A stretch of DNA of 64,000 nt from an uncultured Latescibacterota bacterium (GTDB taxonomy: Bacteria > Latescibacterota > UBA2968): NCBI GenBank assembly GCA_958295785.1, contig OY282377.1, forward strand, positions 1,192,394 through 1,256,393. Direction: 5' to 3'. This document shows positions 61,984 through 64,000 of this stretch, in pieces. Below the pieces are notes generated by a model, which worked only from the letters and a program-made list of their open reading frames with translations, did not search any database and was not told the DNA's origin. Within the stretch, counting starts at the first letter, position 1; each line of letters opens with the position of its first letter. Made by a program: the position numbers and the translations under genes.

Positions 61984-64000
61984 ATGGGTCTTGCAGTGAA
62001 AGCACCGTGGCATAAAATTTCGTGGGATGCGTTTGTGCAAAAGGAACTGCCCGAGTTGCTGGCAGATAAGGTGTCGCTGGCGGATTATCGCGTGGTGGCG
62101 AAGGATGAATACACCTGCGAATTGCATCTCGCGGCTCAAGGTGGTGCAACGGTGGTGTACAAAAATATCCCGCAGCCCGACGACTATGGGCGGTTTAAGG
62201 TGGATGGGTTTTTTCGCACAGTGGTTCCCGTGCCGACAGAGGTGGATTTGGCGCGGGCTGAAATTCGGTGCGTGGGCGAGCAATTGCGCGATTGTCTCGC
62301 ACAGCGGTTGGACGGGATGCCCGAGATGCTCGAAGACAGCATTCAAACGTGGATGCCGTTGGGCGATTGGATGCACGCATTTTTTACCCGCGAACCCACG
62401 TCTCAGTTTTTGCAGGCGACCAATTGGCAGGATATGCACGTTCACTTGCGGCGGGTGACGTTGATCCCCATTCTCGATCAAGCCGAGGGGTTGGCAAATG
62501 GGTATCATCCGTCTCACGACGGGCGCGTTTGCCCCTATTGCACGCCCGAAGGCCCAAATATCGCGCGGATTTTGGAGGTGGCGCAGGGGGCGACCATCCG
62601 CGATGGCAAGTTGGTGATCGAAGACGACGCGCCCGAAAAGCGCGTGGGCATTGGCGCGTCAGTCACGCCGTTTATGGAACACAATGACACCAATCGCGCT
62701 TTGATGGGGGTGAACATGACGCGCCAGTGGATCGGCGCGCCAGGGCCCGATATGCCGCGCGATGAGCAAGGCGCGTGGTGTGCCTATCACGCGCAATACG
62801 ATGGCAAAGCCCTGGAATCCGAACCCGCGCTGGTGCAAACCGGGTGCGAACCGCGCGATCCGCATTTTTGGACGGGCTACAATTTGCTCACCGCGTTTAT
62901 GGCGTGGAACGGGGACGCGCACGAAGACGCGCTTGTGATAAGCGAATCCGCGGCCAATCGGATGATGCTGCCCAACCGCGTTGCGCCGGGCGACAAGCTC
63001 AGCAATCGGCACGGGTTTAAGGGCGTGGTGTCGCGCATTGTGCCCGATGATGCGATGCCCACCATGTCGGATGGCACGCCTGTGGAACTCATTATGAGCG
63101 TGTGCGGGTTGCCCTCGCGCCTCAATTTCGGGCAGGTGCGCGAAGCCGTGATGGGGCGCGTTGCCAAGGCCAAGGGCGAGCCGGTGATCGTCCCCATCTT
63201 TGCCGCGCCAAAAGACGATGCGATCCGCGCCGAGTTGAAGCGATACGGCCTGTCGGAAGACGGCATGGACGCGCTGCGTCTCAATGGCGAACCCCTGTTG
63301 CGCCGCACGACAGTGGGATGGGTGTATTGGGGACGCACATCTCATTTGGCTGCGGATAAAATTCACATGGGAGTCGCGCCCGAGCAGCGCGGTCAAGAAG
63401 TGGGCGAAGCGGAGTTTTTGGCCCTGCGAGAAGCCGGTGCTTTTGGGGTGATCGGCGATTTGTTCAATACGTGCTCGGCCATGCGAGACGATGCCGATAC
63501 TTTGGCAGAGCGCGTGGCCGCAGGGCCTGTTGTCCCCGTTGCGCCATCTCCCGCGTTTGAAGATTTGGTCAGGCGTTTGGCGCGAGGAGGCGTGGAGGTC
63601 GCGTTGGGCAAATACGGTGCCGAGTGTTCATTGAAACGCGGCGGCGATATCGCGCTTGCGCGTGCGGTGCCGCATCCGTGGTTGTCCGGGCATTCCCTGA
63701 CCCATGTGGGCAAAGACGCGCCCCGAGTTTTGCAAGAGGCCAATGACCGCTTGGCGGAGATGATCGCAAAGGGCGCGCCCGAGGTGCTGATCCAGCGCGG
63801 GCACAAAACCCTGTGCGAGCGCGTTGGCGATTTTTGCGATTGGCCGCAGTCGCGCTTTCACGCGAATGTGTTATTCAGCGGGCGTTCGGTGGCCGTGCCG
63901 GGCGCGAAATTGCGATACGATCAAGTCGGCATTCCCGAAGACATGGCGTGGACCTTGTTTGGCCCTTTTGCCGCGCGTGCGGTGGGGGTCGAAGAAGTCG
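61984..64000 (+). CDS. Compact fused beta-beta' RNA polymerase (partial, runs off the right edge)
   Basis: 672 codons from ATG 61984 (AGGAGG eight bases upstream) with no stop before the edge. Beta-like motifs in order: [16 protein letters not shown] (about 69-84), SQFLQATN (140-147), [14 protein letters not shown] (180-193), [10 protein letters not shown] (224-233), NRALMGVNM (237-245), LVISE after WNGDAHEDA (308-321, with Glu314-Asp315 as in E. coli E813-D814), [15 protein letters not shown] (335-349, Lys338 and Lys346 as K1065 and K1073), [14 protein letters not shown], and [19 protein letters not shown] (443-461). Beta' motifs follow in the same chain: [18 protein letters not shown] (586-603), then [20 protein letters not shown] (631-650) and [12 protein letters not shown]. 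The flap, wall and zinc ribbon are missing. The catalytic DFDGD-type motif should lie just beyond 64000. Confidence 0.9.

Follow-up and report, generated by a model that had tools for sequence, protein, structure and literature searches.

A second, much reduced RNA polymerase (mini-RNAP), in which bacterial-type beta and beta' parts are fused into one chain of 1028 aa, is encoded in the genome of an uncultured member of the Latescibacterota, downstream of a gene for an ECF-type sigma factor. The best explanation, and on the sequence data a probable one, is that these two genes form a self-activating operon for a sigma factor and a domain-stripped, single-chain RNAP, which would together act as an auxiliary, active transcription machine. 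The chances seem about even that the pair represents an undescribed class, i.e. a chromosomal single-chain holoenzyme (sigma plus compact core, without trigger-loop helix or flap) that would serve as an orthogonal second transcription system and would have arisen by independent reduction of a bacterial-type ancestor, in convergence with YonO. If this is true, transcription in some bacteria involves a second, minimal core enzyme in addition to the usual one.

Identification of the mini-RNAP gene

The window, that is, the whole stretch of 64,000 nucleotides analysed, comes from a single-contig genome of 5.66 Mb (G000:C1:1192394-1256393). The mini-RNAP frame is open up to the end of the window and was read on to its stop codon in the full genome (L004:1984-5070; Table 1). 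A preliminary description had claimed a miniature, clearly bacterial-type enzyme carrying beta and then beta' in a single chain. Indeed, all the motifs that it quoted are found, the Pfam domains lie in the same order (Rpb2 domain 3, 4e-6, and Rpb2 domain 6, 2e-39, then Rpb1 domain 2, 1.8e-11), and the small chain shares a core of about 1000 columns with the canonical cellular subunits at about 29% identity. The beta' catalytic motif, expected about 250 bases beyond the window, is present at a shorter distance of about 165 bases: MNLDFDGDQ starts at residue 728 and is followed downstream by a GARGN segment. None of the three outcomes that were named as speaking against the claim (no beta' motif, an early stop, or a genome with this RNAP only) was encountered.

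A canonical rpoB (frame of 1270 aa), rpoC (1367 aa) and a single rpoA are encoded in the home genome, all separate from the mini-RNAP gene, which is therefore additional, as had been proposed, and constitutes neither the only nor the main RNAP of the genome. Relatives likewise keep a canonical rpoB/rpoC pair. The frame is not a product of chance, because 14 further full-length homologues were found (44-79% identity) and pairwise dN/dS within genera is 0.14-0.18, a sign of purifying selection. Near relatives, at 79% identity, are Candidatus Latescibacterota MAGs. Truncation or an early stop was ruled out by the conservation of the frame and of both its ends among relatives, and an assembly artefact by the presence of the gene in the single-contig genomes G008, G037 and G046.

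Domain organization and predicted structure

Alignment to the E. coli subunits and to RpoB and RpoC of its own genome shows mini-RNAP to be collinear first with beta, then with beta', and to lack whole segments. In brief, the absent segments are: (i) residues 147-440 of E. coli beta, which we take from general knowledge of the enzyme to be the lobe, and most of residues 826-1057, presumably the flap and wall; (ii) residues 1-111 of E. coli beta', presumably the zinc ribbon; and (iii) beta' residues 136-261, 834-1145 and 1156-1330, which we take to include the zinc region, the trigger-loop helix and the jaw. The fork, both barrels, the clamp coiled coil, the SGRSV segment, the DFDGD triad and the bridge helix are kept, as is the C-terminal switch segment, in which an LARARR... 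stretch aligns with LFEARR... of E. coli. As landmarks of the beta part, E. coli E565 corresponds to residue 189 and K1065 to residue 338; the spacing between E813 and K1065 is 252 residues in E. coli versus 24 in mini-RNAP. The lost segments are peripheral or regulatory domains, with a collinear core between them, and the full canonical set of lobe, flap, beta' zinc ribbon, jaw and trigger loop is not present. In canonical enzymes, the beta' clamp coiled coil is the docking site of sigma region 2, and the flap that of sigma region 4.

A first AlphaFold model, computed from a 15-row alignment, was poor (pLDDT 57.7). A second model, for which canonical subunits were added to the alignment, reached a pLDDT of 75.7 and a pTM of 0.71; it shows the clamp coiled coil as a helical hairpin and, at residues 946-977, a helix of 32 residues matching the bridge helix, which the preliminary description had rightly anticipated beyond the window. 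The trigger loop, anticipated there too, is missing: its helix is absent from the chain. Supply of a trigger loop by a second gene was ruled out, the Rpb1 domain 5 model having a single match in the home genome, in the normal rpoC. In Foldseek searches, the second model matched several bacterial beta' chains (about 540-560 columns, rmsd 5-8 A) and, among viral models, RNAP subunits. Its likeness to beta' chains is supporting rather than independent evidence, because canonical subunits were part of its alignment.

Sigma factor, promoter and gene neighbourhood

The preliminary description had overlooked the ECF-type sigma gene and the conserved promoter in front of it, the absence of trigger loop and flap, and the occurrence in a second phylum (see below). 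The start codon of the sigma gene is a TTG shared across the genus (the frame has its first TTG at 61290), and the gene product matches Pfam Sigma70_r2 (1.9e-18) and Sigma70_r4_2 (1e-14) as well as NCBIfam sigma70-ECF (6e-32). Regions 2 and 4 are the only sigma regions present, and the promoter has a GAAC-type -35 and a GTC-type -10 element, as expected of ECF sigma factors.

Table 1. Features of the sigma-mini-RNAP locus (window coordinates)
Feature	Position	Strand	Basis
ECF-type promoter TGAACC-N10-GGGCGGTGTC (-35 TGAACC, -10 CGGTGTC), upstream of the sigma gene	61093..61118	+	Phylogenetic footprint, shared between genera and by both phyla
Gene for an ECF-type sigma factor of 193 aa with regions 2 and 4 and a conserved P-W-M/L-I motif in the linker	61305..61886	+	Pfam, NCBIfam, alignments
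Shine-Dalgarno sequence AGGAGG, 5' of the mini-RNAP gene	61970..61975	+	Kept in relatives as AGGAGGAATTTG or GAGGAGAAATTTG
Compact fused beta-beta' RNAP gene	61984..64000, continuing beyond the window to 65070	+	Frame, Pfam, alignment, AlphaFold model
Beta catalytic barrel motif (equivalents of E. coli K1065 and K1073)	62989..63024	+	Alignment
Beta' clamp coiled coil, residues 581-617	63724..63834	+	Alignment; helical hairpin in model

Of 33 genomes, 31 have an ECF-type sigma gene upstream of mini-RNAP and in the same orientation, including 10 of the 11 of the second phylum. The two exceptions are (i) G036, where the contig begins inside the mini-RNAP gene (all other Latescibacterota carriers have the sigma gene), and (ii) G392 of the second phylum, where the mini-RNAP frame is incomplete and the contig retrieved showed no sigma gene. 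The two genes overlap by a single base in one genus, the base with which sigma ends and the ATG of mini-RNAP begins. Conversely, sigma genes with no mini-RNAP detected occur in the home phylum only near contig ends (G010, G022 and G027, which may or may not carry the RNAP). These two genes are the only neighbours common to all lineages of both phyla.

Several members of the home genus have one gene between sigma and mini-RNAP, coding either for an ABC exporter (L032, 6953-8743; partly seen in L012 and L013) or for a TPR-like protein (L027, 6160-7347; L038); these intervening genes are possible clients of the operon. A zf-dskA_traR protein and a protein of about 310 aa form a conserved pair upstream of sigma in two families (L026:12474-14344; L027:3399-5472). 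The DksA-like gene and its partner were rejected as obligatory companions, being more widespread than mini-RNAP and encoded elsewhere in the home genome. A defence system was also rejected, PADLOC giving no match for mini-RNAP or sigma. Elsewhere in the window, the region 55802-57372 apparently holds a single gene broken into two frames of 421 and 125 aa, for which a relative has a single frame of 556 codons (L025:1998-3665; 73% identical over 424 aa).

The promoter consensus is TGAACY-N12-SCGGYGTC, with identical spacing in distant genera of the Latescibacterota; in the second phylum, TGAACT-N12-GCGGTGTC precedes all 10 of the 10 loci with a sigma gene, one of them with a single mismatch. The promoter in the window is the sole perfect match in the home genome, where sites with at most two mismatches number 22, versus 9 for the reversed control. 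With a relaxed consensus, exactly one site is found in 10 of 11 genomes of the home genus; in G009, which has none, the contig breaks off at this point. Between promoter and sigma start lie about 190 bases in the window versus about 30 in the other members of the genus. These searches give no sign of a large regulon, since the pattern matches essentially its own operon only, in the home genome as in those of the genus. These promoter data fit what would be expected of an autoregulated sigma-mini-RNAP operon.

We infer from the sequences that the ECF-type sigma would recognise the TGAACY-N12-SCGGYGTC promoter, that its region 2 would bind mini-RNAP at the beta' clamp coiled coil, which is retained there, and that the resulting complex would transcribe its own operon and a small further set of targets, in parallel to the normal RNAP. 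A dedicated holoenzyme of this kind has points against it: the trigger-loop helix is missing, as is the flap, the searches revealed no regulon besides the operon's own promoter, and the sigma factor could equally use the normal RNAP. Sigma and the host RNAP might then switch on mini-RNAP, which would itself act without sigma on another type of template or promoter (e.g. RNA or single-stranded DNA). This reading would account for the standard ECF form of the promoter and for the retention of region 4 in the sigma factor after its docking site was lost from mini-RNAP, but it is unlikely in view of the retained docking site for region 2 and of the tight linkage of sigma to mini-RNAP, solitary sigma genes of the home phylum being confined to contig ends.

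Catalytic residues

Mini-RNAP has the hallmarks of a two-barrel (double-psi beta-barrel) RNAP, namely DFDGD at residues 731-735 on the beta' side and the basic residues K338 and K346 on the beta side. Conservation was counted over 25 full-length members from the two phyla, and positions are given in E. coli numbering. Invariant in all 25 are D462 and D464 of beta' and E565 and D814 of beta, and 23 keep the third aspartate, D460 of beta' (Y in G031, N in G379). K1073 (R in the remaining member), R1106 and H1237 are each found in 24 of 25, and the K1065 position is K in 20 members and R in 3. Less conserved are R425 (16/25), N458 (15/25) and R731 (17/25). No equivalents of the trigger-loop residues M932, R933 and H936 could be recognised among the 15 members from the Latescibacterota that were compared.

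From these data, mini-RNAP is presumed to be catalytically active. Some members may be inactive, because D460 is lost in G031 and G379 and because R425, N458 and R731 vary. The missing trigger loop does not exclude activity, since YonO of the SPbeta prophage, a single-chain two-barrel RNAP also without trigger-loop homology, is active and processive (PMC5467207). The loss of a catalytic aspartate in two members, the three variable positions and the absent trigger loop could also point to an RNAP paralogue with little or no catalytic activity, which would bind sigma as a titrator or co-factor. Such a role appears improbable: D462 and D464 are invariant across two phyla, and the losses have fallen on peripheral domains and spared the residues of the active centre, whereas a scaffold would be expected to show the reverse pattern.

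Distribution and phylogeny

Mini-RNAP is carried by 22 of 64 species of Latescibacterota, all within one class; G010 of the home genus, additional to these, has just the first 44 codons at a contig end. A wide sample of 386 genomes, 64 of them from the home phylum and about 320 from outside it, yielded a full-length match in one genome of another phylum, and a search of this second phylum found mini-RNAP in 11 of 85 species. The compact enzymes form a single, fully supported clade in trees, on a long branch (1.7-1.9). The clade may have originated by duplication within the Latescibacterota, by descent from an alpha-beta-beta' type (see below) or by transfer. Frameshifts break both sigma and mini-RNAP in L038 (G009:C276) of the home genus, which are either pseudogenes or assembly errors.

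The preliminary description had also suggested a mobile-element machine, and the patchy distribution over two phyla, at positions that differ between genera, would suit a polymerase left behind in the chromosome by a phage or mobile element. This origin is very improbable: no phage or plasmid record matched at least 80% of the query; of two scans of viral contigs, one gave partial matches only, at 30-32% identity, and the second gave no match; neither phage nor integrase genes were recognised near the locus; and conserved synteny and purifying selection are seen within genera.

Comparison with other single-chain RNA polymerases

The rpoB-rpoC fusions of Helicobacter and Wolbachia are the main enzyme of their hosts. 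These full-length fusions (NCBIfam PRK09603, PRK14844) also have beta and beta' in one chain and in the same order, but their models are 2839-2890 positions long, whereas the compact chain described here coexists with separate rpoB and rpoC. With YonO, mini-RNAP shares its single-chain build, a size of about 100 kDa, the presence of both barrels and the lack of trigger-loop homology (PMC5467207); the flap insert, too, is missing from YonO-type enzymes (PMC7824862). YonO is prophage-borne and has few residues in common with cellular RNAPs, whereas mini-RNAP is chromosomal, paired with a sigma factor and alignable with them over about 1000 columns. Mini-RNAP is set apart from YonO by description, and no Bacillus phage record was present among the tblastn hits. 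The crAssphage and jumbo-phage enzymes, compared by description, are likewise extra two-barrel RNAPs, the crAss enzyme also being one fused chain; crAss enzymes are reported to escape cellular RNAP profiles, and jumbo-phage enzymes consist of several chains (PMC7481178, PMC7824862).

Mini-RNAP belongs to the single-chain two-barrel kind of RNAP. The open-access literature describes YonO, crAss-type, jumbo-phage and killer-plasmid enzymes, and no earlier description of a chromosomal, sigma-paired mini-RNAP was found in our searches of it, subscription papers being mostly outside their scope. The enzyme is a natural experiment on which parts of a cellular RNAP are dispensable while the partnership with sigma is apparently kept. 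If it is active, it would be a single-chain bacterial RNAP of about 110 kDa that depends on sigma. Such an enzyme would lend itself to structural studies and to the questions of how sigma region 4 functions in the absence of a flap and how catalysis proceeds with no trigger loop; it might also find use as an orthogonal tool for expression.

Another accessory-looking, single-chain, bacterial-type enzyme is encoded in the same phylum, in G031:C268 (L022:419-6355). It differs from mini-RNAP in its size (1979 aa), in an alpha N-terminal domain preceding beta and beta', and in its intact trigger loop. It groups with the compact clade in one tree, which may reflect long-branch attraction. A partial frame similar to this alpha-beta-beta' fusion is present in G023:C65 (L024:4161-7733). 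Furthermore, a divergent beta-beta' fusion with a frameshift before the bridge helix and the start of a trigger loop in the second frame is found in G057:C540 (L023:92-4423 and 4302-5087), and rpoB, rpoC and rpoA occur together on a Pontibacillus plasmid of 898 kb (L078, NZ_CP062975.1:420585-428931).
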